NCBI GenBank assembly: GCA_030144725.1
Contig: JASKMD010000009.1
Coordinates: 5,090,679 to 5,154,678, forward strand
Origin: Haematococcus lacustris
Taxonomy: Eukaryota > Chlorophyta > Chlorophyceae > Chlamydomonadales > Haematococcaceae
Reading direction: 5' to 3'
Length of the DNA stretch: 64,000 nt
The translations under genes were made by a program, and so were the position numbers. The notes under the pieces are model-generated. The model did no database searches. It worked only from the letters and a program-made list of their open reading frames with translations, and was not told where the DNA came from. This document shows, one piece after another, positions 6,971-47,338 of this stretch; positions within the stretch are counted from its first letter, which is position 1; every line of letters begins with the position of its first letter.

Positions 6971-7186
6971 ACCAGGGGCAATGACACCGAGCTTGCTGCT
7001 GTACTGCTGTGCTGGTTACATCAGCCTGGGGCACAAGCTGCTGTGAGCCCAATCAGCCGATAGATACCGATAGATGTACCCCCCTCCTCCACTGTGTGCC
7101 CTTTGGAGGTGCAAGAGTGAGTGACATCGCCTCCTGGGTATATGTAGGTATCAGCAGATATGAGAAGGTATGAGCCTAGTGGCGCA

Positions 7187-8122
7187 ATGCCTCCGAGGAA
7201 GCGGCCCAGCACCGCGGAGCAAGAGCCGCATCCAATTGAAAGCCCGTTGGTATGAAGTGAAAGAGGTGTTGCATGTGACATGCCTGACTGTGTGCTATCA
7301 TGTCAGCCACCCTCTGTCTGCCTTGTGTGTATGGCTGCAGTTAAAGGAGGACATGGCAGAGGTGTCCATGGAGCGCCATGGGCGTGCCAAGCAGCTGGTG
7401 GTGTTCTTTGGAGCAGCGGGCATTGGCACAAGGGGGGGCTGGGGTGCTGATGCGGTGCTGCGTGCCTGCTGCAAGGTGGTGTGCAGGCCCAGGGGGACAG
7501 ACCAGCGGCGGGCAGGGTGGTGCTTGTGGATGTGCACCGCACCAGCCGGGTCAGCTCAGCAATGAATGGCCAGCAGCCCTGTGAGAGGCAGCTGAACAAA
7601 CGCAGGGCCACCAGGCCTGCAGGCTGGAAGCCACCAGCAGGTCAGGTGGAACACCGCCTAGTGCGCCCAGCCTGGAGCCAGCAGCGTGACCAGCCGGTGC
7701 GGGGCATGATGTGGTGCCCTGTAGTGGCCCCACGCAAGCCCCCACAGACCCCACGCAGCAGCCAGGAAGCCTCACAGCCAGCAGCCTCAGAGCCTGGGCC
7801 CAGCACTCCCCTGCCAGCCAAGCGCAGCAAGCGCACCAAGGCTGAGCCAGAGGCAGCTGAGCCCACCAAGGCCCAGGGCAAGGCTGCCAAGGCAAAGCCA
7901 GCACCACAGCCAGGCAGGTGGCTGGACAGGGACTGCAATGCAGCGCTGAACATGCAGCGCATTGGGGAGAGCAAGTGGCGGCCGCTGGAGCTGTGCTTCT
8001 GGCCAGAGCAGGGGAAGCTGCCAGCCAAGGGCAAGGAGTACCCTGGCCTGGGCTACAAGTGGCTGCGAGACAAGCCACCCAAGGCCCAGCAGCAGCAGCA
8101 GCAGCCTGCTGGGGCACATTAG
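7187..8122 (+). pseudogene. Fanzor (TnpB-like) nuclease remnant, copy A
   Basis: Fanzors are eukaryotic relatives of TnpB, RNA-guided DNA nucleases with a split RuvC core. After the N-terminal exon fragment (7187-7246), an acceptor CTGCAG at 7340 leads into LKEDMAEVSMERHGRAKQLV, then VVFFGAAGIGTRGGWGADAV and VVLVDVHRTSRVSSAMNG, then MMWCPVVAPRKPP. A linker with the NLS-like PAKRSKRTKAEP follows, then the RuvC-III type motif GRWLDRDCNAALNMQRIG, which carries the last catalytic Asp, and a Gln-rich C-terminus. Compared with copy D, one G is missing near 7508 (GGCGGGCAGGG against GGCGGGGCAGGG). This puts VVFFGAA and VVLVD in different frames. Most of the wedge and RuvC-I regions are absent. It is dead as a nuclease gene, although the 3' half is intact. 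Confidence 0.72.
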
Positions 8123-8373
8123 TGTGTGTCCCCCCTATCTTGAGCTGTCATCAGCTTACACCTAGTGCATGTATTGTCATGCCAACTCTACGTCATAGCC
8201 CTCCGGGGTCAGGCAATGCTGTAGGTGGTAGGCGACCATGACCATGTGTATGCCATGTATAGGCCATAAGCATGCCATGCGATGGGAACTCCACACAGAA
8301 AAGACACTGTTTTGTAGTGGTCCACAATTAGTGTGTTCGACTGCAATGAAGGCTCAAGGTTGAGAGCCAAGGT
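8123..8373 (+). ncRNA. Conserved 3' module of Fanzor copy A, candidate guide-RNA scaffold
   Basis: The 250 nt after the stop codon are as well conserved between copies as the coding part. They include the block TCAGGCAATGCTGTAGGTGG, a variable number of GTGTATGCCAT units, AACTCCACACAGAAAAGACA, and a terminal hairpin GGCTC-AAGGTTGA-GAGCC just before the element end CAAGGT. In TnpB and Fanzor systems the guide scaffold overlaps the 3' end of the gene and the guide is copied from the DNA just outside the element. Here that would be GCTGCTTACATCAGCC. Transcription has not been shown; this is inference from position, conservation and hairpin. Confidence 0.35.
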
Positions 8374-8781
8374 GCTGCTTACATCAGCCACTCTCCTTAT
8401 CGAGTGATCCAGGTGTGGGGCTCCACCTAGTGGCCTCATGTCATCCTGCTGCCACCCTTACCAAGTCTGTCAGCTTGATGGATCAGCTTTTGCATGATGG
8501 CTGTGGAGGAGAAGGGCTGCGAGGCATGAGCAGGCAGCAGCAGTGCAAGGCAGCGAACAGGCTTAACCTAAACCTCAGCCATGCCAAGGCTACTCATCTT
8601 CATTGTCATGACATGGCACTCTGTTGCTGCTGCAAACATCTCTTACATGGCTTACATGGCTTACATGGCTTACATGGCTTACATGGCTTACAACGTCAAA
8701 TTAACAGCAATTTCCATGACACAAAAATGCCATGTCATCACTATCTGCATGTGACGTTGTCCTATCAGTGCTGTTGCAAAA
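8374..8781. other. No gene; 9-bp tandem array at 8647-8695
   Basis: The only structure seen is about five copies of the 9-mer GCTTACATG at 8647-8695. It may have arisen from the GCTTACAT of the neighbouring Fanzor flank. No supported reading frame is present. Confidence 0.5.
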
Positions 8782-9319
8782 CATAGGATTGTTGACCTAG
8801 TCAGTTTGGTCATGTCCAGTCCTGCATCAGCACATGCGTGACCAAAGGGCTGCACTCTAGTTACCGGCCACAGCCGTAATGTCAGGTCAGCAGCAGCAGC
8901 AGTAGCAACAGCAGCAGCGGCAGCAGCAGCGGCTGTAAGGATGGCAGGAACAGCAGCAACACGTGGCAAAAGCAACAGCATGGGCAAAACCATAAGCAAA
9001 GGTGGCAGATCCAGCTTCAAATCCTGCAGTCCTACTTCTAGCACCAGTACCATAGGATTGTTGACCTAGTCAGTTTGGTCATGTCCAGTCCTGCATCAGC
9101 ACATGCGTGACCAAAGGGCTGCACTCTAGTTACCGGCCACAGCCGTAATGTCAGGTCAGCAGCAGCAGCAGTAGCAACAGCAGCAGCGGCAGCAGCAGCG
9201 GCTGTAAGGATGGCAGGAACAGCAGCAACACGTGGCAAAAGCAACAGCATGGGCAAAACCATAAGCAAAGGTGGCAGATCCAGCTTCAAATCCTGCAGTC
9301 CTACTTCTAGCACCAGTAG
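8782..9319. repeat. Tandem duplication of 269 bp
   Basis: 8782-9050 and 9051-9319 appear identical base for base, from CATAGGATTGTTGACCTAG to TTCTAGCACCAGTA. Each carries CAG/CAGCGG runs. The identity implies a very recent event or an assembly artefact. The minus-strand frames through it (poly-Ala) are repeat artefacts. Confidence 0.9.
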
Positions 9320-9775
9320 TGGCCATTGCCAAAGGTTGCCATGCCTGCAAGGAAGGTGGTGGTGAGTGCAGCTGAGTGGAGATGTGAACTGCTGGTTAGC
9401 ACTGCCAATGAATACATACCATCAAGACCTATGGGCTTAAAGGCCCAGTGGCTAAAGAAGCTCCTACTGCTCATTTACCGCCTCACTCTTCAGGCTGGAA
9501 CATCACACTCTGTGCTCCTCCGTGTAGAGCAGTACAGGCTATTACACCAGTGAGAGTGAGGCCATGCTGGTCGCTGTGGAGCGTGAAGGGGCCTTGGGGT
9601 CAGCCTACCTGCTGCATGATGACCGCCTGCACGGCAGCTCTCAGCTCAATGCCAGTCCGAAGCTTGTCATGCCTGCATGGCGCAACAGGGGCGCACATGC
9701 TACAACACCTGGCTGCTGCTGCCGCTGGGGATGTTGGTTACCTGCGATGCTGAGACACCCACCTGGTGTTGCTGT
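9320..9775. other. No recognised gene
   Basis: 9555-9760 on the plus strand reads MLVAVEREGALGSAYLLHDD and SPKLVMPAWRNRGAH, which looks protein-like. It could be an exon of a decayed gene, perhaps the missing Fanzor middle part, but I cannot assign it. It runs straight into the hexamer array. Confidence 0.3.
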
Positions 9776-9952
9776 TACTCTGGCCCTGGCCCTAGCCCTG
9801 GCCCTGGCCCTAGCCCTGGCCCTGGCCCTGGCCCTGGCCCTGGCCCTGGGCCTGGCCCTGGGCCTGGCCCTGGCCCTGGCCCTGGCCCTGGCCCTGGCCC
9901 TGGCCCTGGCCCTGGTCCTGGTCCTGGTCCTGGCCCTGGTCCTGGCCCTCCA
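9776..9952. repeat. Hexanucleotide array (CCTGGC/CCTGGG variants)
   Basis: About 29 units of CCTGGC, with CCTGGG, CCTAGC and CCTGGT variants. Every frame through it stays open (Pro-Gly, Ala-Leu, Arg-Ala), which produces spurious long ORFs on both strands. Confidence 0.95.
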
Positions 9953-10184
9953 ACCGCCCCTTTCCTGCCTCCCTCCCCCTCGCTCCTTTCTCCCTGATCC
10001 TCCTTCTCTATACACCCCTGGCCATGGCCCTGGCCCTCCCCTTCATGGCTGCTGTGCCAAAGCATGCATTGCTGGCACACCCACTTCTTGACAATCTTCA
10101 CAACGGCAGCAAAGTTCAGCAAGCTCCAGTGCAGCAGCAACACTAGCTCCCCATGCAGGTCCACCAGAGAGACTCGCAACACCT

Positions 10185-10366
10185 GAGTCAGAGTCAGAGT
10201 CAGAGTCAGAGTCAGGGTCAGAGTCAAATAGTCCACCAACGACACTCGCAATACCTGGTGCCATTAGGGTCATTGATTGCTCCCACCAGGGTTCGAACCT
10301 GGGGTTCCTCCCATCCCAGCCCCACACAACTGATTGCTTTGGCAGCCTCTGAGCCACCTGGCCACA
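10185..10366 (-). mobile_element. tRNA-derived SINE
   Basis: On the minus strand a perfect A-box TGGCTCAGAGG (10356-10346) is followed 57 nt later by a perfect B-box GGTTCGAACCC inside the T-arm CCAGGTTCGAACCCTGG (about 10303-10287). The segment ends in a hexamer tail (TGACTC)n at 10226-10190. The seven bases before the A-box do not pair with those after the T-stem, so it is not a functional tRNA. Pol III promoter boxes plus a simple-repeat tail are the hallmark of a SINE. Imperfect copies of GTCCACCA(N)6ACTCGCAA (10159-10181 and 10229-10253) flank the hexamer tail. Confidence 0.75.
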
Positions 10367-10849
10367 AGGTCAGGTCATGCTCCACAGTTCACAACAGTGG
10401 AAAGACCTGTTGCTGGACACAATGCCATGAAGGCAAGGAAGCGCTACTGTTGCACGCAGCCTGGGTGCGTAGCTCCAGTCAGTACACACATGGCCTTGCT
10501 TGGTCATTTTCTATGGCTTATCTTACATGGCCCTGCTTGGCCACTTTCCAGATTTCCTACTCTCAGACACACACACATGGCCTTGCTGGGCCATTGCCTG
10601 TGCTCCTACCTTTCCTGTTCTCCTACCATCAGGGTTTAAGGTATTGATGCCTACCGACCACACACACGGGGCGGCCAACGACTTGACAGCTTGCGTCCCT
10701 GATGGTGGCAGGGTCACACTAAGTGGGTGGGTTCCAAGGGGTGCGGCATGCCTCTTTTTGTGACGACAATCGCATGCTCAGCGCTGCATGGCGCTCATGC
10801 CCATGCAGTGCATCTCATCAATCGCACACCTGGTGCGCGTTCAGCTGCT
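10367..10849. other. No gene; degenerate CATGGCC(C/T)TGCT repeats
   Basis: 10490-10600 contains four diverged copies of ACATGGCCTTGCTTGGCCA spaced 40-50 bp apart. Nothing else is supported. Confidence 0.4.
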
Positions 10850-10864
10850 GCTGTGCTCTGCTAC

Positions 10865-11495
10865 CAATCAGCCGATAGATACCGATAGATGTACCCCCCT
10901 CCTCCACTGTGTGCCCTTTGGAGGTGCCCTTAGGAAGGGCCCTTTGGAGGTGCAAGAGTGAGTGACATTGCCTCCTGGGTATATGTAGGTACGAGCAGAT
11001 ATGAGAAGGTATGAGCCTAGTGGTGCAATGCCTCCGAGGAAGCGGCCCAGTACCGCGGAGCAAGAGCCGCATCCAATTGAAAGCCCGCGAAAACAAGGTT
11101 CGTCGTAGCGTGGAGCTGTGCTACTGGCCGGAGCAGGGGAAGCTGCCAGCCAAGGGCAAGGAGTACCCTGGCCTGGGCTACAAGCGGCTGCGAGACAAGC
11201 CACCCAAGGCCCAGCAGCAGCAGCAGCCTGCTGGGGCACAGTAATGTGTGTCCCCCTTATCTTGAGCTGTCATCAGCTTTCAATCAGTGCATGTTTTGTC
11301 ATCCCAATTCTACGTCATAGCCCTCCGGGGTCAGGCAATGCTGTAGGTGGTAGGCGACCATGACCATGTGTATGCCATGTATATGCCATGAGCATGCCAT
11401 GCGATGGGAACTCCACACAGAAAAGACACTGCTTTGTAGTGGTCCACAATTAGTGTGTTCGACTGCAATGAAGGCTCAAGGTTGAGAGCCAAGGT
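10865..11495 (+). mobile_element. Fanzor element, copy B (large internal deletion)
   Basis: It is flanked by GCTGTG[C/T]TCTGCTAC at 10850-10864 and 11496-11510 (14 of 15 match). The 5' segment starts CAATCAGCCGATAG. An ATG at 11028 gives the same N-terminus MPPRKRPSTAEQEPHP and continues a few codons further than copy A before a stop. The deletion joins it to the C-terminal end at ELCYWPEQGKLPAKGKEYPG (11112-11244, stop TAA). The 3' module 11245-11495 is complete. It is a non-autonomous derivative. Confidence 0.75.
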
Positions 11496-11510
11496 GCTGT
11501 GTTCTGCTAC

Positions 11511-12218
11511 TGCTGTGTGTTCTCTGCCAGACAGGAAGGGGCAGCAGCATGACAGGCAGGGGGAGGAGCAGCTGGAGGTGGGTTAGCAGCAGCCAGACAA
11601 GGGCATCAAGTAGCATGAAGATGTACATGAATGTCGCGCTGCTCAATGTTGTTGTTTTGCTTCCACCGCTAAGCCACCAAGCTAGCGGCTCAGCGGTGGT
11701 AATCAACGCTCAACGCTCAACGCTCCCCACACGCCTTGCACTTCCACACCACACACGCGTCTACACCCACATGCACCTCCTATGCCCTTCATGAGTCATA
11801 GTCGAGTGAGCCAACAACAGATCGATGCTCCCCACACACTTCCACATGCACTCTCACATGCAACCCACACCACACATGCATGTGCAGGCCGTACGCAATG
11901 CCATGCAGAAGAATAGCCTGCCATGGTGCCTGTCACAGGTGGGTGCTTAGCTGCAGGGCATGCAACCCTAGCTGGGACATCCTCCTGGCTGGGTCAGGCT
12001 TGCTGCTGGCTGGGCTACCCGACTATAGGCGGGCTGCCGGGGCTGGCTTGGAGACATGTGCACCAACAGCAGATGCGAGCACCGCCCTTCAGACTAGACT
12101 GGCCCACCTGCACTTGGCGCTTACTCAGGTGGCTTGAGTTGGCGACCTGGTCCGCCAGGGACTGCATGCAGATCACGGCTTCCTCCTCCTTCTCCACTGC
12201 ATGTCACCATGTGCCAGC
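11511..12218. other. No recognised gene
   Basis: 11700-11880 is rich in CACACTTCC/ACACAC-type sequence. The reading frames here are short and show no domain. The start of copy B's right flank (GCTGTGTTCTGCTAC) is the only feature tied to a neighbour. Confidence 0.4.
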
Positions 12219-12266
<48 letters not shown>

Positions 12267-12372
12267 GCCCTGAGCCTGGCCCTGAGCCTGGCCCTGAGCC
12301 TGGCCCTGAGCCTGGCCCTGAGCCTGGCCCTGAGCCTGGCCCTGACCCTGACCCTGAGCCTGACCCTGAGGG
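12219..12372. repeat. Hexanucleotide array (GAGCCT / GGCCCT)
   Basis: About 25 units alternate CTGAGC and CTGGCC, ending in CTGACC variants. As with the array at 9776, all frames stay open through it. Confidence 0.95.
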
Positions 12373-12535
12373 GCAAGCTAGCTGGCGCCACCCTTAGCCT
12401 CCTGAGCACACCGTACACGCATGCAGGCTGCTGGGCCAGCTCAAGCCAATGCTCTGCTCTGCTCTGCTCAGCTTGTCAGACCTACGCACTGCCTCCGCCT
12501 GTCGCCGACCTTGTTAGCCATGCTGCTTACGTGTG

Positions 12536-12690
12536 CTGTAGGTGGTAGGCGACCATGACCATGTGTATGCCATGTATAGGCCATGAGCATGCCATGCGAT
12601 GGGAACTCCACACAGAAAAGACACTGTTTTGTAGTGGTCCACAATTAGTGTGTTCGACTGCAATGAAGGCTCAAGGTTGAGAGCCAAGGT
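12536..12690 (+). mobile_element. Solo Fanzor 3' module, 155 bp
   Basis: Only the last 155 bp of the element are present (CTGTAGGTGGTAGGCGACC ... GAGAGCCAAGGT). It is bounded by a perfect 14-bp direct repeat GCTGCTTACGTGTG at 12522-12535 and 12691-12704. This shows that the short 3' module alone could be inserted, or that the copy was 5'-truncated as it integrated. Confidence 0.85.
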
Positions 12691-12704
12691 GCTGCTTACG
12701 TGTG

Positions 12705-13800
12705 ATGCTTCACGGTGAGACACGCCATGAGCCCTGGGTTGCCTGTCTCCTGGCCATGCTAGGCAATGTTATAGTGTGGATGAAGGGAGCTGCGGCCCTG
12801 CCTGGGCATCACGATAGATCCGCATGGATGTAGCCTGGTCATGCCTGGATGCCTGGATCAGCATGTGCAGCCTGGCATGTGCCACTGAAGCGTTGCAAGG
12901 TAGTCAAAATGTCAGCATGTCTTTTCAAGCTTAGCATTCTGTCGAGTCTGTGAGGAAGCAAGCATTGCCTCCTCCAGCCCTCCTGAGCCTACTGCCCTCT
13001 CAACTGAACACCAAGGCCATGAGGTGCCCCACACATGCCAGTGCATAAGGGTGTGCTGGGCTTCCTGCGAGGCTCACTGAACACTGGCTGACACACTGTC
13101 GCACACTGGCCCTGTGGCTTGTTGCTTTGGTGTCTACCAGCTGAAAGTCACTGCCAAACAAACAGACAAACTCACTGAAAAAGGTGTTGAACCTGCGCAA
13201 GTCCTGGTCCAGAGTGGCCAAGAAGGTCTGCTGCTCAGCTGACAGCTGTCGTCCCTCAACCTGCAGCAGAACAGGCAGTGACAGCCGCGCTCATTGTCAT
13301 CGCAGTCAACCCTGTCGCGCCACTGCCCCTGCTGCTGCTGTGGTGGCGGCGGCGGCGGCGGCGTTCGCCGCTGCTGGTGCGGGCGTCGCCGCTGCTGCTG
13401 CTACTGGTGCTGGTGCCATAGGGTCTGGTGCAGGTGCAGGCCGGTGGCTGGGGTCTGCTACTCTTCATACTCCTGCTCCTTTCTCCGAACATACAGAGTC
13501 AGCATGGTCCAGGTGCCCTGCAGCGCTCTTATAGGTTCGTAACCCCTCTAGCAGCTTACTTGTGCACTTCTGGTGCTTGGGTCACCGCCCTTGCAGGCAG
13601 AGGCGCTGCCCTGACCATCTACGGGCAGGCACACAGAAGCGGTGCATCAAGCCATGACAGCCAACCAGGGAGTGGCAGCAGCAGGGTAAGCTGTAGGGAC
13701 CCTAGTGCAGGGATGTTGGTAGAGAGTTCTATGGTAGGGTGTTGGTCATGCGCCCAACACGATTATGAGACACCATAGTCAAGCAATCACTGGCATCCCA
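12705..13800. other. No recognised gene
   Basis: 13300-13420 contains GGC/GCC-rich trinucleotide stretches that give poly-Ala or Gly frames. An open frame at 13184-13534 (+) is of this kind. No splice-consistent protein was found. Confidence 0.4.
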
Positions 13801-14781
13801 GCTTCACATCTGGCGCCCGGCTCTCCCCTGCCAGCCAAGCGCACCAAGCGCACTGGGGCTGAGCAGGCAGCTGAGTCCTCTACGGCCGAGAGCAACATCA
13901 CGGCTGACAGGCCCACCCCCCAGCAGTGCAGCCTGGATGGTTAACAGACCAGGGTTGCAATGCAGCGCTGAACATGCAGCGCATTGGGGAGGCCAAGTGG
14001 CGCCCACTGGAGCTGGGTTGGTGGCCTCAGCTGCCTGAGCTACATGCCTGCCAACCCTGACCTGGGGCACAAGCTGCTGCGAGACCAATCATGGTGCCCT
14101 TAGGATGTGCCCTTTGGAGGTGCCCTTTGGAAGTGCCCTTTGGAGGTGCAAGAGTGAGTGACATCGCCTCCTGGGTATATGTAGGTACGAGCAGATATGA
14201 GAAGGTATGAGCCTAGTGGCGCAATGCCTCCGAGGAAGCGGCCCAGTACCGCGGAGCAAGAGCCGCATCCAATAGTGCATGTTTTGTCATGCCAACTCTA
14301 CGGTGTAGCCCTAACGGGTCAGGCAATGCTGTAGGTGGTAGGCGACCATGACCATGTGTATGCCATGTGTATGCCATGTGTATGCCATGTGTAGGCCATG
14401 AGCATGCCATGCGATGGGAACTCCACACAGAAAAGATACTGTTTTGTAGTGGTTCACAATTAGTGTGTTCGACTGCAATGAAGGCTCAAGGTTGAGAGCC
14501 AAGGTGCTGCGAGACCAATCATTCAAGGCCCAGTCACAGCAACTGCGGCACAGTAGCATGCCCCAGGGATCCCCATGAGCCATCATCAGATCACATCAGC
14601 GCCAGTCGGTCATGCCAATGCTAGGCTAAAGCCCTGTCACAGGGGTCAGGCAACAGTGTGGGTGGAAGGCGCCGGTGGAGCATGCATGAGAGGATCACTC
14701 CATTCAAACAGAACACCACCCTTAGTGTGAGGGTACATTATCTGTGTTTGTGTCAATGCCCACTTGGCTGCTGAGGGAGGT
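13801..14781 (+). mobile_element. Old, diverged Fanzor copy interrupted by copy C
   Basis: 13801-14092 encodes a diverged C-terminus with stops: PAKRTKRTGAEQAAE, then GCAATGCAGCGCTGAACATG (the NAALNM motif), then GCACAAGCTGCTGCGAGACC. The sequence resumes after copy C at 14506 (CTGCGAGACCAATCATTCAA ... CACAGTAG). A second type of 3' module with CCCTGTCACAGGGGTCAGGC follows and ends GGGAGGT at 14781, again followed by GCTG. It represents an older subfamily. Confidence 0.65.
14093..14505 (+). mobile_element. Fanzor-derived non-autonomous element, copy C
   Basis: This 413-bp element sits inside the old Fanzor copy, between perfect 17-bp repeats GCTGCGAGACCAATCAT (14076-14092 and 14506-14522). 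It carries the 5' segment with extra copies of GTGCCCTTTGGA, the N-terminal fragment from the ATG at 14224, then a deletion to AGTGCATGTTTTGTCATG and the complete 3' module. It has no C-terminal coding part. The nesting gives a relative age: the host copy is older. Confidence 0.82.
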
Positions 14782-17354
14782 GCTGCGTTAGTGCGGGGAG
14801 TGGTTAGCTGGTAAGGCGCCTGTGAAGACAATTGATGGATGGTTTCCGATTCTGAGCCATTGCGTAGCGTGCTTTGAGACGGCTGGGGAGATGTCATCCA
14901 GCCCATCGCACCTGTGGTCTGAATTACCTGTTTTATGTACCATTTTGTAAAGTTATGTGCGTGACATGCAGTCATTGAGCATGTTCCATGCCTGGTTTTG
15001 TATGCATAGGATGGTGTGAAGTCGCCTGTGTGTCAAGGCAGGCAAGGCGAGATGTGCATGGCATAGGGTCTAGAACGTTTGCATCCATCCACACCAGTGT
15101 TATTGTTTTCCTGCTGTATGTTTTCACGCAGTGTTTTTATTTTTGCGACTATATATAGCTTTCGCTATGAAATGCCATACTTCAGGTGTCGTTGCGTACC
15201 ACGCATTGCACTGTAAAACATGACCTTCAACCTGCAGCTTTGCGTATTTTAGCGTACTTTCTGCCATATATTTCACCTGAGCGATGTTGAAGTTGAAGTA
15301 AGGTCTAGATGTTCATGGCATAGGGTATAAACCTATGCCATGATACACTGATCAACATCACATGTGCAGGCAATTGATGAGTGGTGAGGTGATATCATCC
15401 AGCCCATCACAGCTATGCATTGAATAACCTGGGTCATGCATATAGAGACGTGTTCTGTAGGCCAGCCTGAAGGTCTTGTTTTCTTGGCAATAGACAGCCA
15501 TAGACAGCCATAAACAGCCCCTAACACTCACTGCTGCTTGGCTGGTGCTCTTGCATATCACCCTCAGGGCCAGCCAGGGATGGGAAACCATGCCACTGGC
15601 CGGCATGGCAACTTGGCCGCACAAAGTCCCAGCTAGCATGCATAACTCAACTCACACAGCTCACGTCTCTTTGATGCCCAAGGCACTGGTAAGGAGTTTT
15701 CCAGGGTGTGGAACCACTAGGACATCTGCTGCAGAGCATAGTCAGGATATTCGCTACAAAGCCTTACATGCTTGCCTGATGGTGAAGCCGCCTGTTGGGT
15801 GCTTGCTATAGCCTTTAGGACACGCTTCAACTGCAAGCGCACAGGCAACCGGAAGGGCAACAGCAAGTGCACTGCCAACCTGACATGTTGGCAATGTACT
15901 GCCTCATCGTCACAGTGATGCATAGGCTCTGTCCAGCCTGTGCATGTGCCCATGCATGTGTCGAGGCTTGCATGGTCTGGGCTGCATGCACTATCTGGAC
16001 TGTATAGACACTGGGTCTGGATGCCTGGATTCTATGGACACTGGGCTTGCTTCGGCATTGACTTTGCACTATGGCTATATCATTAATGCCCTGCCCACAT
16101 CACAGTCCTGTGGCTTGTTTAAAAGATGGCAATGTGTGCAGGCTAGACCGACCTGCTTGTATCGTAAGAAAAAGGGTGCCAGATGGGGGCAGCCATCATG
16201 AGCCAAACTGAGCATCTTGCCTGCCAGTGCGATGAAGCAGCTTGTCAAAGCTTATCGAATTGCTCCCTACTCAGCTCCCCAAGCGGTCTTACCGAACTTC
16301 ATGCCCTCCCGCTATGTGCCTCCTTTGCTATCGCACCAAACAGACAGCTTGATAGCAAGGTGGGCGCGACAGTGAGGGGCTGTATTGGTGCGTATGGCAG
16401 TCGGGTCCCAGTGTTGCGAGCAGAAACGAGCTTGGGCGAGCGCCGCAATCCTTTATGCTCCGCAGGTATATCTCCGCATCTGGCATCTGCCAAGTTCATC
16501 ATTACTGAGACGCCTGCACTGGCACGCCTGCACTGGCACACCCGCACTGGTGCATGAACGACGGCTGAGCTCCCGACGCTTTGCGCCCCGTGTCTATCCC
16601 GTGTTGAAAAGACTTCGTGCTCTAGAAACCTAGACTGCACAGTTGAACTATGTAGCGCTCCAAGCACTGCTGGTACTAGTGAACAACCGGACCGAAAGGA
16701 GAAGCGTGAGGATGAGAGGGACGGCCGGCAAGGGGACCGGCCTGGGTGCGGCGGCATCGAAGGCGGCAAAAGGGGAGGCAGGTCGTCCTTAGTCCCAAGC
16801 CAGGCAGTGCCAGGCAGTGCTAGTACAAGGGCAGCGGAGCGGATGCCGCAGGCAGCGCTTGCACGGCAAACGGCCTCTTGACCAGTGTGTAGATTAGCAC
16901 AAAGCTCGGAGCATTTGCCCTGCATTTAAATATGAGCTTTAGGGATCAAACTTTCGAGATGTCGAGTTGCCCGGTCACACATGGCATGGAATTGAGCCGC
17001 AAATATGTCCCGAAAAACGTTGACAACTGGCCGACGCTCTGTCAGCGGTAACAGCTGAGGAACAGCGCCCGCGCCTGGTAGCGTTGGTCAACCCAGGCCA
17101 GGCCAGGTGGGGCAGCTCACACCACACCCATAACTCCGCCACAGCGTAGCGCAACGCAGCAGCGTTGATGCCGGTAGCATCATTGCTCGCGAGCACACTA
17201 ACAGGCGGTGACAGATGGTGTGCGCTCGCTGCAGGGGGCGATGTCCTGGCTACCCCGGCATGTTTAACGGAGCTGTGAGTGTCTCCTACAGGTTGCCCTC
17301 CAGCTCTCGCCCTCCAGCTCTGATAAGCCTATCTTGTTCATCTCCAGGTGAACC
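14782..17354. other. Intergenic with one dispersed repeat, no recognised gene
   Basis: 15671-15813 is a dispersed repeat listed separately. 16500-16560 has CTGGCACGCCTGCA units. 15110-15170 is AT-rich (TTTTTATTTTTGCGACTATA). The reading frames around 16183-16925 have no domain or clear exon structure. Confidence 0.45.
15671..15813 (+). repeat. Dispersed repeat, partner at 47191-47333
   Basis: About 143 bp shared with 47191-47333 in the same orientation and with few mismatches, from TTTGATGCCCAAGGCACTGG to TGCTATAGCCTT. At 47 kb a Fanzor copy begins directly after it. Here there is none, so this copy shows the sequence without the insertion. Confidence 0.85.
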
Positions 17355-18171
17355 ATGCCTCCCAAGGGCAAGAGAGAGCCCAAGCCCAAAGCCATGCTGA
17401 AGGCCAAACAAGAGGCTAGCAAACGCAAAGTTGGCAGCCCATCTTCTCGTTTGAGAGTAGCCCTGACAGAGTTCGAGAAGCTGGCCAAAGCAGAAAGCCA
17501 AGCTGTCAGCCGGAAACGGACTCGGTTCCACAGGCTAGGAGCACGCTACCACCGTAAGCACCACAGGGCATCTTTTTTCTCGTTCAGTGCTACTGGAAAG
17601 CAAAGCAAGGCAACATCTCTGAGTTGCCATAGTTCAGCTCTTGCTGAAGACGATACAGACCTCACCACCTCCCTCCATGTCATTTTGAACGGTCTCATCT
17701 GCCCCGATCCAATCTTGCAGCAAGCAGCAAGAGCAACTGTGGTGAAGGGAGCTTTGCACCTCCTTCAGCGTTCCAACAACAGTCTAAAACCCCGCAAACT
17801 TACAGCCCCCAACCTCCTTCCCCCTAACATTGGTGACAACAGCGATGTGGACAGCAGCGATGACTACAGCAGTGATTCAGACACACAGCCTGCAGCACCT
17901 GGTGATGATGCAGCCACAGGCGTACGCACAGCCCAACAACTACCAGGCGAGGTTCCTAGACCTCCACCTGGTGCAGCCATCGCAAACCAGCCTAGGGCCA
18001 GCTTGGGGTCGGGGCTGCCAGGTGGAGTTGAAGCGCTTGATTGGACTGGCTTGCAACAGCCAAGGGCAAACGTACCTGGCCCGTTTGGCGGAGCTGGCGC
18101 GCAGCAGCCTGGGCGTGGAAGTCTGAGTGCGCTAGACACCTCTGATATAGGGCTTGGCACGTGGCCGCTTG
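17355..18171 (+). CDS. Hypothetical basic protein, first exon(s)
   Basis: The ATG at 17355 follows CTCCAGGTGAACC. The N-terminus is strongly basic (MPPKGKREPKPKAMLKAKQE, then SRKRTRFHRLGARYHRKHHR), followed by a plausible helical segment (DLTTSLHVILNGLICPDPIL, VVKGALHLLQRSNN) and a low-complexity Ser/Asp, Pro and Gly tail. A GTAAGT donor at 18172 is probably the exon end. Possible later exons are 18197-18290 (from DALFPTSLHTMIAHREPPVA to FWNGYSQAD, with a GTAAGC donor) and a piece ending at 19247 (ALMREVYRVMMTREGGETNL). The phases of the first join do not fit simply, so the model is incomplete. No family is recognised. The charge suggests a nucleic-acid-binding protein, possibly of transposon origin. 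Confidence 0.4.
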
Positions 18172-19851
18172 GTAAGTAGGATGTTGATGCTACCCCAGGA
18201 TGCCTTATTCCCTACCTCCCTACACACAATGATTGCACATAGAGAGCCACCTGTAGCTGCCTTCTGGAATGGCTACAGTCAGGCTGACGTAAGCAACGCA
18301 CACACTTGCACACTCACACATTCCCACACACCCTTCCCCACACACCCCACATACACTAACAAACAGATGCCATGTCATGCTCACACATAAGCACCTACAC
18401 ACACAATGCTCACAGTGTAGTGCATTGCCTTGTGCGTGAATGCAGGCTTGGGAGTGTTCAACACGACTGGAGTGCAACTGAATCTTGGTGCGGCCAATGC
18501 CCTTTTGCCTTGGGCTGCCTACATGCCTGCCTACCCACATGCCTGACAGCCTGCCTGCCTACATGCCTGACAGCCTGCCTGACACCCTACATGCCTGCCT
18601 GCCTGTCTGCCTGCCCACCTGCCCTATTAGCCCACCTGCCCTATTAGCCCACCTGCCCTGCCTACCAGCCTTGCCCTGCGCACCGCTTCATCTCACTGGC
18701 CTTGCCTACCAGCCCATCGCCTACTGCCCACATGCACAGGTGGTTGGCAAGCACCCCCTCCAATCCCCTATGTGGGCGCACACAGTGGGCACCCACCAGG
18801 TGTGCATTTGCTTGCTGTTGCCTACCTTGTTGCTTGCAACATGCTTGCAACATTGCTTGCAACATGATGTCTAGTCACATACCTCCGTTTCTCACATCCG
18901 GGTGCGCACAACATGCGTGCACAATTGTTGCATGCCTTTCTGGTGCATGCGTGCAGGCGACCAGCGGCCACTTCTTCCATTGCCACCAACAGATCTACAT
19001 TGTCCTACCACAGCTCATGGAGGTGTGTCTCTGCAGCTTTTGGCTAGCCGCACTGCTTGTGCCATTGGCTCTTGTGACTTGTTCGTTGCCTGTTCTCACA
19101 GGCCTTAAGCAACCTTGGGTGAACATGGCGTTGGAAGGACTGGGAGGGCATGCAAACCTTGGCATGCACAACAACGACGTCGCATTGATGCGAGAGGTTT
19201 ATCGTGTCATGATGACCCGTGAAGGAGGAGAGACCAACCTGATGTAGAATCTGCAAGGATCTGCACTCACAGCTACGAAAGCTGCGTTGACTAGAATGCA
19301 CACTAGCCAAACATTGGCTGACTGGCTAATGGTCAGATGACATGACATGTTGAGCCGTAAGCGATTGGAAGAAGATGAAGTTGGTTCGGGACCTACCGTG
19401 ATGCAAACATGATTAGCTATGTAACATGGTTGAATTACATCATGACAAGATGCTGGCCGCTCTTCCCCTCCGGCTCCGGGACTTTCTACTTCAAAGGACA
19501 CTTCAAAGCAAGGTGCACAGACAAAGCTGCACATGTTCTGACCGAAATGGATTGGCAAGCAACTGTTGTTGGTACACAGCGCTTGATAGCCAGCTTGTTA
19601 TGGTTGCTCGGTACAGGGAAGGCATGATGCTGGCAGGAATACCATGCATCCAGTTGACCATCACGCGCACAGCCTTCGAGCTCGAGGGTTTGCCTCCAGC
19701 ATCCACATACCGTGCCCAGGTGGTCTACAAGGCATGACACATGGCTTGACAACAGGGGCATGACACAGCGCATGACGACAGGCATGGCACTTAAACAAAG
19801 TGCATTCACCATCAATAGGCAACCATGGCCGCACACCTTCAGGCGACAGTC
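18172..19851. other. Possible later exons of the gene at 17355, plus CTGCCTACATGC repeats
   Basis: 18520-18620 is a run of diverged GCCTGCCTACATGCCTGACA units. 18960-19050 and 19102-19247 hold protein-like stretches with CACAG and GCAG acceptors. 19409-19627 is another open frame with protein-like sequence (WPLFPSGSGTFYFKGHFKAR). No single splice chain could be closed. Confidence 0.3.
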
Positions 19852-20501
19852 GCAAGGTGGTGTGCAGGCCCAGGGGGACAGACCAGCGGCGGGGCAGGGT
19901 GGTGCTTGTGGATGAGCACCGCACCAGCCGGGTCAGCTCAGCAATGAATGGCCAGCAGCCCTGTGAGAGGCAGCTGAACAAACGCAGGGCCACCAGGCCT
20001 GCAGGCTGGAAGCCACCAGCAGGTCAGGTGGAACACTGCCTAGTGCGCCCAGCCTGGAGCCAGCAGCGTGACCAGCCGGTGCGGGGCATGATGTGGTGCC
20101 CTGTAGTGGCCCCACGCAAGCCCCCACAGGCCCCACGCAGCAGCCAGGAAGCCTCACAGGCAGCAGCCTCAGAGCCTGGGCCCAGCACTCCCCTGCCAGC
20201 CAAGCGCAGCAAGCGCACCAAGGCTGAGCCGGCAGCTGAGCCCACCAAGGCCCAGGGCAAGGCTGCCAAGGCAAAGCCAGCACCACAGCCGGGCAGGTGG
20301 CTGGACAGGGACTGCAATGCAGCGCTGAACATGCAGCGCATTGGGGAGAGCAAGTGGCGGCCGGTGGAGCTGTGCTACTGGCCAGAGCAGGGGAAGCTGC
20401 CAGCCAAGGGCAAGGAGTACCCTGGCCTGGGCTACAAGCGGCTGCGAGACAAGCCACCCAAGGCCCAGCAGCAGCAGCAGCAGCCTGCTGGGGCACAGTA
20501 G
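19852..20501 (+). pseudogene. Fanzor nuclease C-terminal half, copy D, open frame
   Basis: The frame is unbroken from KVVCRPRGTDQRRGRVVLVD through EHRTSRVSSAMNGQQPC, MMWCPVVAPRKPPQ, the basic linker PAKRSKRTKAEP, and GRWLDRDCNAALNMQRIG to the Gln-rich end and TAG. EHRTSR matches the usual TnpB/Fanzor (E)xRTS motif better than the VHRTSR of copy A. The RuvC-III Asp of LDRD is present. RuvC-I and the rest of the N-terminus are missing, so it cannot be a complete nuclease. It is the best template here for recognising full-length relatives elsewhere. Confidence 0.72.
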
Positions 20502-20773
20502 TGTGTGTCCCCCCTATCTTGAGCTGTCATCAGCTTTCAATCAGTGCATGTTTGTCATGCCAACTCTACGTCATAGCCCTCCGGGGTCAGGCAATGCTGT
20601 AGGTGGTAGGCGACCATGACCATGTGTATGCCATGTGTATGCCATGTGTATGCCATGTGTAGGCCATGAGCATGCCATGTGATGGGAACTCCACACAGAA
20701 AAGACACTGTTTTGTAGTGGTCCACAATTAGTGTGTTCGACTGCAATGAAGGCTCAAGGTTGAGAGCCAAGGT
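20502..20773 (+). ncRNA. Conserved 3' module of Fanzor copy D, candidate guide-RNA scaffold
   Basis: Same ordered blocks as in copy A, with the terminal hairpin GGCTC/GAGCC and three GTGTATGCCAT units. The adjacent DNA that would form a guide is GCTGGCCTCCCTTCTTGC. It is a candidate by homology and position only. Confidence 0.35.
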
Positions 20774-21605
20774 GCTGGCCTCCCTTCTTGCAACGTGTGC
20801 CGGAGTCAATGAGCACCCTCTGTCTTGTGGTGGCACATTGCTGCATGGCTTGCTGCACTGCCAGCTGCAGCTGGGGGCTGGTGAGCACTCTGTCCAACAG
20901 CTGAGCCTGCTGTTCTGCTGTGCCACAGCGCCCAAACACCTTCATTAGCTCCTGACCCATGCGCTCAAACTGCTTGTCACGGGGACCCGCTGCTGATCCG
21001 CGCTTCCTGCCCCTGCCCCTGCCCCAGCCCCTCTCCCTGCTCCTCCCCTTGTCGGTGTGGGGTGCACTGCGTTGCGCTGTGACAGCACGGGTGGCAGCTG
21101 CGGGGGGGGGGGGGCTGCTGCGGGGGAGGGGGAGGGGGAGTGAGGGGGGCAGCAACATGCCCGCAGCTTTGGCAGCCCCCCTCTCTCTGAGGAGCTGTAT
21201 GTTGCTGGGTGAAAAGCACCTGCTCCGTTCAGCAGGGCTAATGCCCAGCGGACAGGCCAGGTTTTGGTCGTGCCAAGGGCAGGGGTCGGGGCTAGGGCTG
21301 CAGCTGGAGCAGGGGCTGGGGCAGGGGTTGGGGCTGTGATGAGGGCTAAGGTGAGGGCGAGGGCTGGGATGGTGGCAGGGGCTGGCATGGGGGCGAGGGC
21401 AAGGACTGTGGCTGGCGATGGGGCTAGTCCTGGGCTCATGCTGGGGCTGGGTTGGCGGCTGCATGGAGGCTGATGGCATGCTGTCAGCCGGCGTATTGAC
21501 CTCGCAGTGGATGGCCCCTTGCTGCTGGGGTGCGGGAGTGCCACGACCCTGCTCCCCAGGTAATGCTGCCAGTGGGGATGTCAAGAAGGGCCTGCAGCAC
21601 ATCAT
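20754..21605 (-). CDS. Hypothetical Pro/Ser/Arg-rich protein, C-terminus supplied by a Fanzor end
   Basis: A 283-codon open frame. The N-terminal two thirds are Pro/Ser/His-rich and repeat-driven. The last 70 residues look like a real folded segment (RDKQFERMGQELMKVFGRCG, AEQQAQLLDRVLTSPQLQLA, VQQAMQQC), probably helical. The final residues QHLGSQP and the TGA lie in the antisense of the Fanzor terminus (20773-20754), so the element truncated or replaced the original C-terminus. CTGCAG/GCCCTTCTTGAC near 21595 could be a splice acceptor, so the start is uncertain. No family is recognised. Confidence 0.4.
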   Translation of the reverse strand: MMCCRPFLTSPLAALPGEQGRGTPAPQQQGAIHCEVNTPADSMPSASMQPPTQPQHEPRTSPIASHSPCPRPHASPCHHPSPRPHLSPHHSPNPCPSPCSSCSPSPDPCPWHDQNLACPLGISPAERSRCFSPSNIQLLRERGAAKAAGMLLPPSLPLPLPRSSPPPPAAATRAVTAQRSAPHTDKGRSRERGWGRGRGRKRGSAAGPRDKQFERMGQELMKVFGRCGTAEQQAQLLDRVLTSPQLQLAVQQAMQQCATTRQRVLIDSGTRCKKGGQHLGSQP

Positions 21606-22711: not shown

Positions 22712-23284
22712 TCAGCTGGAGGGGTGGGCAGCCCAGGGGCAGCACCAGCACCAGCTGTCTGCTGCTGCCAAGGGGGGTGCAGCAGGAGGGGGGGGCAGGT
22801 CAGGGGCGGCACCAGCACCAGCTGCCTGCTGCTGCCAGGGGGGTGCAACAGGAGGGGGGGGCAGGTCAGGGGCAGCACCAGCACCAGCTGTCTGCTGCTG
22901 CCAGGGGGGTGCAGCAGGAGGGGGGGGCAGGTCAGGGGCGGCACCAGCACCAGCTGCCTGCTGCTGCCAAGGGGGTGCAGCAGGAGGGGGGGGCAGGTCA
23001 GGGGCGGCTACTGTGTTGCAGATATGGGCCATGACAAGACCCTTCAGCTTGGGCTTCAGCCACCCCTTCATAAGCTCCTGCTGGTGGAAGCGAAGGTAAG
23101 CTTGCAACTCCCTAACAGATAGCTTCTCAGCCTCCTGGACAGTGGTGTGGCTGTAATTGTATATATATGTGCCATGCGCGTCCCACACACGAGGGTCACA
23201 CATTGGCAGCCGCTGCCCTGTCCTCTTCTGCTGCTGGCCCTCCACTTCCTGCTGTTGCTGCTGGTCTTCCTGTTCTTGCTGCAT
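22712..23284 (-). CDS. Gln-rich protein with SAP-like helix-turn and Pro-rich minisatellite tail
   Basis: From the ATG at about 23284 the protein is Gln-rich (MQQEQEDQQQQQEVEG). A folded-looking part follows (RLPMCDPRVWDAHGTYIYNY), then KLSVRELQAYLRFHQQELMK and GWLKPKLKGLVMAHI. The latter resembles a SAP motif (two helices, DNA-binding), but that call is weak. The rest is four repeats of APDLPPPPAAPPWQQQAAGA encoded by the minisatellite. A splice acceptor upstream of the ATG (CTGCAAAG) is possible, so an upstream exon may exist. Function unknown. Confidence 0.4.
   Translation of the reverse strand: MQQEQEDQQQQQEVEGQQQKRTGQRLPMCDPRVWDAHGTYIYNYSHTTVQEAEKLSVRELQAYLRFHQQELMKGWLKPKLKGLVMAHICNTVAAPDLPPPPAAPPWQQQAAGAGAAPDLPPPPAAPPWQQQTAGAGAAPDLPPPPVAPPWQQQAAGAGAAPDLPPPPAAPPLAAADSWCWCCPWAAHPSS
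22738..23010. repeat. Minisatellite, about four 66-bp units
   Basis: The units start at about 22741, 22809, 22875 and 22939 and contain GCACCAGCACCAGCTGTCTG, then GGGGGGTGCAGCAGGAGG. Unit lengths vary slightly through G-run length. Confidence 0.85.
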
Positions 23285-25452: not shown

Positions 25453-28400
25453 TTAGGCAACACACCCTGGGCCTGAGGAAAGAGCTGCTTTGGTACGCTG
25501 CTCAATGTGCTGCTTCACAAAGCGTCGAAGATTCTGCAACAAGGTCTTTTGGGCTGGTCGGTGCTTGGGTGGGATCTTGTAGAAGTTGATGTAGCCCCAC
25601 AACTGTGCCAAAGTGAAGGCCGCAGCTTCTTTAAGTGTGGTTGCACTGTAGTCAGCTCCTCGAGGATGCCTGCTGCTAGCTGCTCTCAATTGGCCGAGGC
25701 TAGCGACGGTGCCAATGTTGAGCACCAGCTGCTTGTTGCCCCCCACCATGCAAGACTCAGTCACCGCCTTGCGTGCTGCTCGTGCCACTGCAGTCTTGGC
25801 GGCGGATGCACGCTCCATGTCACGTTGTTCTTTCCGGAGGGCCTTCATCCGTGGCTGGAGGTCCACGGCGTCCATGGCACGGAATGATGCAGGGTCAGTC
25901 TTGGCGATGACAGTGCCTAGCAATGCTGCCAGCCCTTGCTTGCTGCCATGTCCATGCTTGGCGTGTTGGAGGGCTGACTCCACATGCGCATTGGACGTTG
26001 GCGCTGCCCCAAAGAAGTGCACCAAGTGCATGAAGAGTCGTGGGCTGCATGCCTCGTTGGCAGCCATGGCTTCGATGTCGGCACGGAACATGGATATAGT
26101 GTTGAACGGATCGTACTCTGCTGGGTTGCATGACTGGGGTGGTAACGACCGGCGCATGCGCTTGCGGTTGCCGTGATCTTGTTGACGCTCCTCCTCCTGT
26201 TGTTGCTCCTCCCAAGCCTCCCACTGCTTGCGGTTCGCAGCATCCTCTTCCAACACCCTCCTGGCTGCGTGGGCTGCATATGTTGCATCGGAAGACGCCA
26301 TTGCAGGAAGGAGATGGGGAAGTTGCAGGTACACTTTGCTGTGCGCACCCAAGTACTTGAACATAGCGTCGATGTGCTGAGTGATGAGGTGGACTAGCTC
26401 AAGCTTGACCACCTCCCACTGTGAAGGGGGGACGAGCTCTTGTGCCCGTGAGAAGAGTTCAGGGAAGTCCTCGTCCACAAGTGCCCCCAATAGGCTGTCT
26501 GACAGGGCTTCTACATGCCGCGCCACCTCAAATGCGTGCATGCCCCCCCCAGTGGCAGCCCAGCCTAGCTCGGGCATAATGATCTGCTGCCCCACCACAG
26601 CCACCACCATGACTTGCAAGGTGAATGTGGTGTTAAGCAACAGGCCACTCAGCTCCGCTGCCCAGTCCGGGGCCAAAGCTCCCCGCTCTTCCATGATGAT
26701 AGCCACGGCCTTGGTGACGGGCCCAAGCACACGGGTAAGGGATAGGCAAGCTGTCACGAAGCTGCCCCACCGGGTAAGGGTAGGGAAGCTGGGCTTGGAC
26801 CACCCCCCCATATTGGGCAGCCCATCCCAATGCCCCATGATGAGGCTGCAAAGTCGCTCAATGCTAAAGGCAACCTCCGCTGACAACCCTTGCCGCCCAC
26901 GGTCCTCTGCCTTGCCCCATGCTGTCAGGCCCTGGTGCAAAACATTGTGGTAGAGATGGCTGAGGCAAGGCCAGAACATGATTAGGGCCAGGCCTTGACG
27001 CCTGCGGGAAAGGTTGACGAGGGCGACAAGGCCACCCGTGCGCCCAACATTGCTTGCAGCACTGTCCACTGTGACACTAGCCAGCAACTCCCACAGATTG
27101 GCCTCTTTGAGTAGCTGCTCCAAATCATGTGCTTGTGCTGCCGCAGTGCTGTCGGGGCACTTGCGGATATCAAGCACTCGACACAAGATCCTGGACGGCT
27201 CTTGGCCATGTGTTAGGATCTGGGCGGGCGTAGGGGGGCCAGCAGCCAAGGGCGTAGGGGGGCCAGCAGCCAAGGGCGTAGGGGGGCCAGCAGCCAAGGG
27301 CGTAGGGGGGCCAGCAGCCAAGGGCGTAGGGGGGTCAGCAGCCAAGGGCGTAGGGGGGCCAGCAGCCAAGGGCGTAGGGGGGCCAGCAGCCAAGGGCGTA
27401 GGGGGGCCAGCAGCCAAGGGCGTAGGGGGGCCAGCAGCCAAGGGCGTAGGGGGGCCAGCAGCCAAGGGCGTAGGGGGGCCAGCAGCCAAGGGCGTAGGGG
27501 GGCCAGCAGCCAAGGGCGTAGGGGGGCCAGCAGTCAGGCTTGAGGTGGGCAGGGAGGGGACAGGAGCTGGGATGGATGCACTTGCACAAAACAGCACAAC
27601 CTTGCCATTCTTGATGGTGCAGCCATCCATCTGGACGTGAACTGCTGGCGCTTTGCTCAACTGGCCTGCGCATGCACACACGCACATCCCAACTCCAGTC
27701 CAGCTTATTCAAATTTTGGCACTACCACATATCAACACCCCATGGTAACAACCCATGGAGACCCCCCATAACAGCATCCCACAACAACCTCACCACAACA
27801 ACCCATAACAACACCTCATGGTAACACCCCATGGTAACACTCTGGTAACATTCCATGGTACTCACTTTTGAATGTGCCTTGGATTTTACGAGTGAGCATC
27901 AGCTGGTGGCGACGTACTGTGGAAGGCCCAGCTTGAGGTTGAGGTGGGGCATCTGGGAACTCTGCAGCCGCCACAGCTGTGCGCAGGGGGCCAAGCTGCT
28001 GGCATGACACGTTGGGCAAAGTCAACAGCGCCGCGTTGCTGCATGCATAGGCTGCAGTGAAGGCTCCCGTCACAGTATCACGCTCCTTGTGGCAAGGGGG
28101 GGGGGGGGGCCTTGAAGGCTGTTGCTGGGCTGGCTGCTTGTGTGCATGGCGGTGCACCCCACATGGCATGCCATCGCTTCAAGGTGTAGAGTGACACCTC
28201 ATTGCGTTGCAGCCAAGACATTTTGTCTCGCACGTCCTTGGGCATGGCCTTCCTAGCTGCTGCTTGCTGTGCCTGCGTGACCGCCAGCTGGGTTCCCATG
28301 CTCCTGACCTTGCTCTTACATGCTGCCAGCTCTTGTTTTGCAGCTGAAAGTTTTGCTTGGCAGCGGTGCAAAGACACTTGCAAGGCAAGCACCTCGTTCT

Positions 28401-32637: not shown

Positions 32638-34367
32638 GACAGTGTCTACCTGCGACCTACGTCAGCAACCTACACCATTGTGCTAAAGGCCTCACATTCC
32701 ACGTGCCGGCAGGGAGGGAGGTGGTTGTGACAGTTGCAATTGGGTGGTAAAGCGTTGGGGGCGTGTTTTCATTGCCTGGCTATCGTTTGGCCACTGCCAC
32801 TTTCACTCCCCTGCCGACTGTTCGCTGCCATTCTGCCATCAGCGAAGCATACAAGAAGTCAGCATGCTCGATATGCATGCTCTTACCGTCTTGTGACACG
32901 GCATCAAACCGCTGCCATCGCAGACCGCTGTGGCCTGCCTACCACCCATCATATGTAAGACAAGCAGCACAGTAATCCGCTGCCTGGGCCACACACTGTC
33001 AGCAGATTTGATATGCAAGCCGTCCCGCACATGCAAGCACAACCGTATGCATGTGTCGGTGCGTCCTGCAGCCTCTGGGCGAATTCCACTTGCTAGCCGC
33101 CATCACACCAAGGGGCTATCCTGCGGTCATGTCATTGAGAACTACATCACCTGCCATGTCCATCAGCTCGCGGCAGGCCTGGTGCACCACCTTCCTACCC
33201 CACCCACCCAGTGTGCCAAGGCTGGCTGCACAGAAGACCAACACCAGCTGCCTGACCTGGCACTCGTACAGCTCATTTGAAAGCTAATAAGCTAACAAGC
33301 ACAGCTCATATTGCATGCAAGTCAGGGTGGTGGAAAATTAGTCCCGACAAGTCTCCCTGGCATTTTTATCTTTACTCGCATTTCCACGTCTCCGACCACC
33401 ATACCATCATCACTACTCATCCTCCAATTTGTCAAGGTGTGTTGAACCATGCGCTCCTGGGCACGGTACAGCCCCATGCACTTCTGGCGCCATCGGGGTC
33501 TTCAGCTATACTCCTCACACAGCTTGCCCAGGGACTCCCATGGGCACCTATGAGGGAGCCCCCAGGGCACCTATGAGGGCACCTTCAGTCATGTATTGCA
33601 TGCTGTTGCCAGCCCGGAGGGCTGTCACAACCATGGGCGTGACTGTGCGGTTTGCGTGACATGGGCTGCTGCCAACAGCTGCAAGCGCAGCTGGATGGTC
33701 TAGCAGGCTGTGTCCCACTTCCCATGCTGCCATGGCCCATCAGCCATGCTTGAGGTGCACCCTCAGCTGGGTGTGCAAGGGGTTGGGAGGGTGAACCTGA
33801 TGCCCGCACCCCAACAATCTGGTTTGCACGGCACGCAAAGTGGACACCAACGCTCATGCCAGCTGTGTCTACCCTTTTTGCCTGCCCACATGTGGTACTT
33901 TGCGGCTTGCTGGTCAGTTTGTAGATGATGAAGCTAACCAAGTTCTCTATGCTAGGAGCATTAACATCCAGGTAGCAATACCCAGAGCAGACTACGAGAT
34001 GGTGCTCACGTTTGAGTCCGCGGCCATGCAAATTGCAATAGAATTTGCATAGTCCTTTGGTATACGGATGACCACTTAGCACGCCATTCGGCGCGTAGTC
34101 GTGTGAGCCGTGAACATACGACGGCAGTGAATCGCTCGCGCCTATTGTTGCAGAGCTTGCTCACTAGAAGCATAATGCAGCTACATCGCGGCTGCGCTGG
34201 CGCACTTCGGCCGCCCTGCAAGGTTTGTCGTGCAGCTGGTTCTAAAGTGGCGAAGTCGTAGTGAGCAAGCGCGCCGCTTGCAGGCTAGCAGACGTCCCTC
34301 GCAACTGCGATGCGTTGCGAGCGACATCAACTCGAATGGCTCTCAACCCACTTGCCGCTCACTCAGC
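32638..34367. other. Intergenic between divergently transcribed cyclin and RETICULATA-related genes
   Basis: The two genes point away from each other, so both promoters should lie here. No TATA-like element stands out. 33600-33660 resembles 44660-44715 (GCGTGACTGTGC(A/G)G(A/T)) as a diverged repeat. No exon is supported. Confidence 0.45.
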
Positions 34368-47333: not shown

Positions 47334-47338
47334 TCAGC

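Follow-up and report, generated by a model that had tools for sequence, protein, structure and literature searches.

Shortened repeats in Haematococcus lacustris whose relatives encode a predicted Fanzor1-type nuclease without a zinc finger

The window analysed here, 64,000 nucleotides (nt) of Haematococcus lacustris contig JASKMD010000009.1, contains a family of repeats that we read as broken copies of a likely transposable element. Relatives of these copies encode a predicted Fanzor1-type nuclease that lacks the zinc finger, and the element has likely spread by target-primed copying. We give this reading as a whole a probability of roughly 0.58. Fanzors are eukaryotic RNA-guided nucleases under development as genome editors.

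Copies were located with a repeat finder and by BLAST of the copies against the window. Every site named in the original prediction, which had described a family of repeated copies with one common 3′ end, was recovered with small shifts in coordinates, and two short relics were found beyond its list. The common 3′ end was also borne out: a 25-nt sequence, CTCAAGGTTGAGAGCCAAGGTGCTG, was found seven times, each time with zero mismatches in a search that allowed up to six. The seven young copies that carry it (A, C, D, E, F, G and K) range in length from 159 nt (E) to 1351 nt (A). An eighth young copy, H, is without the 25-nt end, and five further copies are older or very short relics; all of these copies are incomplete. 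The last 159 nt are the sole part common to all seven intact-ended copies, and the 5′ starts differ among all copies in BLAST alignments.

The first ten flanking bases after each of the seven intact 3′ ends were sought near the 5′ junction of the same copy. Matches of 9/10 were obtained for copies A, C and K and of 10/10 for E and F; when placement was random (2000 trials per copy), matches as good arose at rates of 0.15 to 0.85%. Copy A (7027–8377, forward strand) lies between gttacatcagcc at 7015–7026 and cttacatcagcc at 8378–8389, which differ by one mismatch. One mismatch also separates the duplicates flanking copy C (10865–11499, forward), at 10854–10864 and 11500–11510, and those flanking copy K (56501–56708, reverse), which are 10 base pairs (bp) long, at 56709–56718 and 56491–56500. 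Copy E (12536–12694, forward) is flanked by a perfect 10-bp duplication, cttacgtgtg (12526–12535 and 12695–12704), and copy F (14093–14509, forward) by a perfect one of 13 bp (14080–14092 and 14510–14522). Duplications of 10–13 bp were thus found in five of the seven copies. Each is immediately preceded by TGCTG (at 7010–7014 for copy A), a pentanucleotide with a background frequency of 0.0054 per position (0.54%). The last five bases of the element are also TGCTG, so the duplications can equally be read as 15–18 bp long and starting with TGCTG.

Two other kinds of element were considered. A cut-and-paste element with terminal inverted repeats was ruled out: when the first 80 nt of copies A and C were compared with the last 120, no exact inverted match exceeded 7 nt, and the one of that length is placed 79 nt before the 3′ end. 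No tRNA and no Rfam family was found in the window, and nothing therefore points to a tRNA-derived short interspersed nuclear element.

Three protein searches, from which the best 120 of 1279, 1307 and 719 matches were taken, gave 326 different relatives, and every relative among the matches listed is from H. lacustris. All 326 of these predicted proteins contain pieces of the repeat, and the number could exceed 1000 if the unlisted matches are from the same alga. Sixty-two of them are near full length, covering at least 630 of residues 31–731 of P0238, the protein used for reference numbering. Of the 56 rows among these 62 that have a residue at each place of the putative RuvC D-E-D triad (D356, E541 and D672), 53 hold the whole triad. 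The DPG triplet at RuvC1 is almost invariant among non-gap rows (D in 58/60, P357 in 59/60, G in 59/60), and E541, the Ealt glutamate, is kept in 61/61. E541 stands exactly six residues before the first zinc-finger cysteine place (S548), and the D-to-TS distance of 188 in P0238 lies inside the published range of 125–275 (PMC3627910). DPG together with Ealt has been described as a molecular fingerprint of Fanzors (PMC10711439). The ordered and spaced arrangement of three motifs was found in none of 200,000 shuffles of P0238. A smaller alignment, A1, holds 50 rows that were hand-picked from the 62 and so favours intact rows (10 of the 12 rows omitted lack one or more of three simple motif patterns); its members are 71–96% identical to P0238, and in A1 alone the triad is complete in 46/47 rows and the zinc-finger pairs are present in 0/50.

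Fragments that belong to other H. lacustris subfamilies show the same Ealt arrangement. Seven annotated proteins (P0271, P0280, P0306, P0220, P0168, P0050 and P0250) contain C-terminal pieces of such Fanzor-like subfamilies, of VDEFRTSRVSS, DTNPCLN and YDRDVSAALN types, with serine at the first zinc-finger place wherever the Ealt part is present.

The C4 zinc finger belongs to the defining Fanzor motif of Bao and Jurka (PMC3627910), and is carried by many, not all, Fanzors (PMC10711439). It is missing here. Among the 62 near-full-length relatives the first CxxC pair was found in 0/60 scorable rows and the second in 0/54, and no CxxC follows any of 310 Ealt sites across the 326 proteins. The four cysteine places read S, V, C and V. 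Because the C4 cysteines are absent, we class the H. lacustris family as a zinc-finger-less variant and not as a standard member. Between the zinc-finger place and RuvC3 lie about 65 residues rich in proline, alanine and lysine. Such a stretch is absent from the other-subfamily fragment P0220, and P0280 has a proline-rich one, so this place appears to tolerate inserts. Many bacterial and some viral Ealt TnpB-like proteins (EESYTSKASF-type) are also without the zinc-finger cysteines, so that the algal proteins are not the first of the wider family to lack them. Bacterial and viral open reading frames (ORFs) with Ealt and without these cysteines include L039, L045, L048, L055, L059, L062 and L083. 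Like the algal proteins, L039, L048, L055 and L083 have the catalytic glutamate beside TS and serine at the first cysteine place; they differ in having mostly DLG instead of DPG at RuvC1, and NAD instead of DRD at RuvC3. The sole D-x-G triplet of L059 (titled Flavobacteriaceae) is DPG. A large family in a single industrial alga, with catalytic residues but no cysteines, is natural material for studying how far the enzyme depends on a zinc finger.

The original prediction had labelled the family Fanzor from C-terminal motifs, which were confirmed: VVLVD(E/V)HRTSR is present in copies D and A, and LDRDCNAALNM was found as well. Its Fanzor label is probably right in that the full-length relatives carry DPG, Ealt and RD in the expected order and spacing, but profile and fold searches lent it little. 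Copy D matched PF07282 at E 0.011 and 16.3 bits, below the cut-off of 26.3, and copy A gave no PF07282 row. Only 13 of the 50 A1 members matched this profile at E ≤ 0.1 (best 0.0029), and a precomputed match is recorded for 6/326 relatives, several of which are fused or double copies. A TnpB-like profile was built from 67 of 86 collected ORFs, kept by length. It matched 288/326 relatives at E ≤ 10 and 45/326 at E ≤ 1 (best 0.0006), compared with 0/326 reversed and 1/326 shuffled controls at E ≤ 10, but most of this signal came from the short RuvC3 motif, the sole region in the alignments listed. In hhalign comparisons with TnpB the probability was 0.2% for a four-sequence profile and 8.4% for a larger one; the latter scored 29.3, and none of 30 column shuffles went beyond 18.2. 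No solved structure in the PDB was matched by the 50-member profile, and the sole match of a PDB sequence search was to a ribosomal protein, unrelated and at E 0.15. The near-full-length relatives foreseen by the original prediction were retrieved, but fold prediction gave no confident model: two AlphaFold2 runs reached a mean predicted local distance difference test score (pLDDT) of 42.1 and 44.6. A structural search with these models gave no significant match. Of 182 Foldseek rows, the 50 listed include no Fanzor; the RNase H-like domains of HIV reverse transcriptase and Prp8 that stand among them at E 3 to 6 are not evidence. Matches in NCBIfam and PHROGs were all weak: P0238 matched TIGR01765 'transposase N-terminal' at E 0.027 and P0250 matched phrog_506 'transposase' at E 0.00018, and unrelated families also appeared. 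In viral contigs the DE-type Ealt pattern had 0 matches, and a search with alignment A1 gave 0 confirmed ones.

The weak profile scores, the missing PDB matches and the unusable models all weigh against the assignment, and speak for the alternative that the protein is not a TnpB/Fanzor-type nuclease at all but a repeat-encoded product with a chance DRDxNAAxN motif. So does the fact that no curated TnpB profile was matched over its full length at a score above the cut-off. We nevertheless hold this alternative very unlikely, since three separate motifs occur in the correct order and spacing, as no shuffle reproduced, the catalytic residues are almost invariant across 62 paralogues, and other H. 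lacustris subfamilies share the Ealt arrangement. With profile support weak and no usable AlphaFold2 model, the RuvC fold is assigned from motifs, and Fanzor identity is likely rather than shown.

The coding parts of the window copies are fragmentary. When seven long relatives were compared with the window by tblastn, matches covered the 5′ leader as well as the coding sequence that follows from roughly MAEVSM, never the RuvC1 part. Copy A consists of the 5′ leader, what appears to be a partial intron, the coding part from Ealt to RuvC3 and the 3′ region. The annotated H. lacustris protein P0007 (QJQ45_005937) is encoded here without any difference in two pieces, residues 1–32 at 7170–7265 and residues 33–243 at 7487–8119; the frame of copy A changes near 7511 and the catalytic glutamate is replaced by valine. 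A 78-nt part of copy A has no match to any relative's protein over at least 8 residues, and CTGCAG stands at the exon boundary. Copy A therefore seems to retain the 3′ end of what looks like an intron before an exon at 7341. Copy D (19852–20777, forward), which has a complete 3′ end, has the best-kept coding part of the window, with the Ealt glutamate and RuvC3 aspartate kept and the RuvC1 part absent. In copy C the 5′ leader is fused in phase to the C-terminal coding part by an internal deletion, and the 3′ end is complete; in copy F the leader is fused to the 3′ end. The basic N-terminus MPPRKRPSTAEQ proposed in the original prediction is a real frame of the leader, one of two that overlap, but it is contained in none of the 326 relatives and is probably not the main N-terminus. 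Thirty-one relatives start with MSLVAQ, in the other leader frame, and five with MPPRKRP; the MSLVAQ frame is the one in phase with the C-terminal coding part in copy C. Codon-position counts between window copies were uninformative.

A fixed 3′ end, variable 5′ shortening and duplications in five of seven copies are features of retroposons of the long interspersed nuclear element (LINE) type. In target-primed copying the 3′ end of the element RNA (UGCUG) would anneal to a nicked CAGCA target and prime copying, which would begin at the fixed 3′ end and halt early to leave shortened copies. Reverse transcriptase would be supplied in trans, probably by a LINE. TGCTG would then be the start of a 15–18 bp target duplication, pairing with the element's last five bases. 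A single step of this kind would account for the duplications, for the invariant 3′ end and for the TGCTG common to element and target. Several observations count against it. Copies D and G have no duplication (flank matches of 7/10 and 6/10), no reverse transcriptase was present among the ten window ORFs scanned, and neither a poly(A) or simple tail nor a partner LINE was found in the window. The retroposon expectation of intron-free copies fails at copy A, where the intron-like remnant implies that the RNA template, if there was one, was unspliced at that place. Moreover, the case for copying is drawn from seven intact-ended copies within one window.

The main alternative comes from the CRe-1, CRe-2 and CRe-3 elements of Chlamydomonas reinhardtii, which encode green-algal Fanzor1 proteins (PMC3627910). 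They share with the H. lacustris copies frequent 5′ truncation, internal deletion, nearly always intact 3′ ends, variable duplications (7–19 bp) and occasional extra 5′ sequence; the duplications follow TTTT in place of TGCTG. Their 5′ ends match Helitrons, and the pattern was read as that of one-ended Helitrons. By the same account the H. lacustris element would be a non-autonomous Helitron2 moving by rolling-circle, one-ended transposition, and TGCTG would be the site recognised by the HUH nuclease both in the target and at the end of the element. Copying at the DNA level would directly explain the intron remnant of copy A, given that CRe genes have five to ten exons, and a candidate for a Helitron2-like subterminal hairpin, GGCTC-8 nt-GAGCC, lies 9 nt from the 3′ end, although it is not kept as such in two older relics. 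On the other hand Helitron2 is expected to insert without target duplication, and Helitron-1N1_CRe has nearly none (one in 200 insertions; PMC3627910), whereas five of seven copies here have such duplications. Copies A and C, whose 5′ ends may themselves be truncated, showed no asymmetrical terminal inverted repeat of the Helitron2 type there, a difference from the CRe elements. As to the 5′ terminal hairpin of Helitron2, the first 60 nt gave weak folds (–4.3 kcal/mol in copy C and –5.6 kcal/mol in copy A). The polarity is also opposite to that of the tested Helitron Helraiser, which needs its 5′ end, while its 3′ end varies and is not strictly necessary (PMC4778049); here the fixed end is the 3′ one. 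The non-autonomous Helitron2 account is thus possible but doubtful. On the mechanism alone, our judgement leans mildly towards target-primed copying and gives a Helitron a lesser, still appreciable chance; we think the former a slightly better fit. With duplications that follow the element's own last five bases, the two could be told apart by counting in a finished genome.

The characterised Fanzor1 proteins, SpuFz1, GtFz1 and others (PMC10432273, PMC11423790), have a D-E-D RuvC and an origin in eukaryotic mobile elements, as in H. lacustris. The H. lacustris family differs from these proteins in being without the C4 zinc finger, in its stretch of about 65 residues and in having no sequence match to a solved chain. 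By likeness to them, one would expect the 3′ region to supply a guide RNA, a role that the Fanzor literature suggests (PMC10432273); the encoded protein would fold as RuvC and cut DNA with a guide formed by the 3′ region and its flank. The putative scaffold in copy D is the 3′ non-coding region at 20502–20777 (forward). The two older relics that were aligned hold a closely similar version of the block around GGGGTCAGGCAATnnTGTAGGTGGnAGGCG. The 3′ region folds slightly better than its shuffles (z = –1.82, with 10/200 equally good), and covariation is almost lacking, 1 of 60 consensus pairs being compensatory. A bolder scheme, which we consider unlikely, would have the zinc-finger-less lineage spread as RNA at TGCTG and leave 3′ stubs that serve as orphan guide-RNA genes, each with a different guide, used in trans by full-length Fanzors as a self-writing guide library. 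Because intact copies end in TGCTG beside their own guide, TGCTG could not be an ordinary target-adjacent motif without self-cutting; if the guide-library scheme is true, the Fanzor either avoids cutting its own 3′ junction or exploits it.

The analysis adds three points to the original prediction: the zinc finger is missing, the duplications follow TGCTG, and the copies closely resemble the CRe elements of Chlamydomonas. In another green alga, Auxenochlorella, the most abundant repeat is an uncharacterised Fanzor-coding element (PMC12633428), also highly amplified and alike by description only. The H. lacustris genome is reported to consist of 47.3% repeats, mostly interspersed and shorter than 2 kb (PMC7617258), and a family of truncated copies would fit such a composition. 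The available text of the H. lacustris genome papers (PMC7617258, PMC10400597) makes no mention of Fanzor-like or Helitron repeats.

The remaining copies are distributed over the window as follows. Copy F sits within an older related relic (13787–14785, forward) that it interrupts and whose final bases are GAGGTGCTG. Copy G (47335–47980, reverse) contains the 3′ coding part and a complete 3′ end; copy H (49088–49639, reverse) contains coding sequence, and the final ~130 nt of the 3′ end are unmatched. Copies E and K are bare 3′ ends. One older relic is a 3′ end only (52131–52339, forward) and another has a DRDCNAALNM-type RuvC3 part (54663–55083, forward). The two relics beyond the original list are a short one of the coding stretch around MAEVSM...FFGAA (33161–33259, reverse) and a very short one of 52 nt with 77% identity in BLAST (58399–58450, forward). 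Weak BLAST matches at 2165–2223, within a tandem repeat, and at 44630–44658 and 49923–49942 were not counted as copies.

Exons of an EF-hand-like gene were recognised by eye at 48716–53060 on the reverse strand (MFKEMDVDGSGEVSFQEFEAW, SIFAIYDDNRSGTLDQEEF, LFKELDIDKNHFISLSEFKR and LFSKLDISGDGAISEDEF). Copy H lies between the last two of these exons in sense orientation, and the relic at 52131–52339 between other exons in antisense. The first part of an ORF at 31083–31793 (reverse) matches Cyclin_N over a short length (E 3.5e-6). Other repeats in the window are a 24-bp × 12.8 tandem array (27226–27533) within a 744-residue ORF without a Pfam match, a 66-bp × 4.4 array (22713–23005), an AGGC tetranucleotide array of about 90 copies (57146–57508) and segments at 41718–42739 and 45862–46894, about 4.15 kb apart, that are 94–97% identical. 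At 8782–9318 there is a perfect 269-bp tandem duplication, 100% identical and probably very recent.

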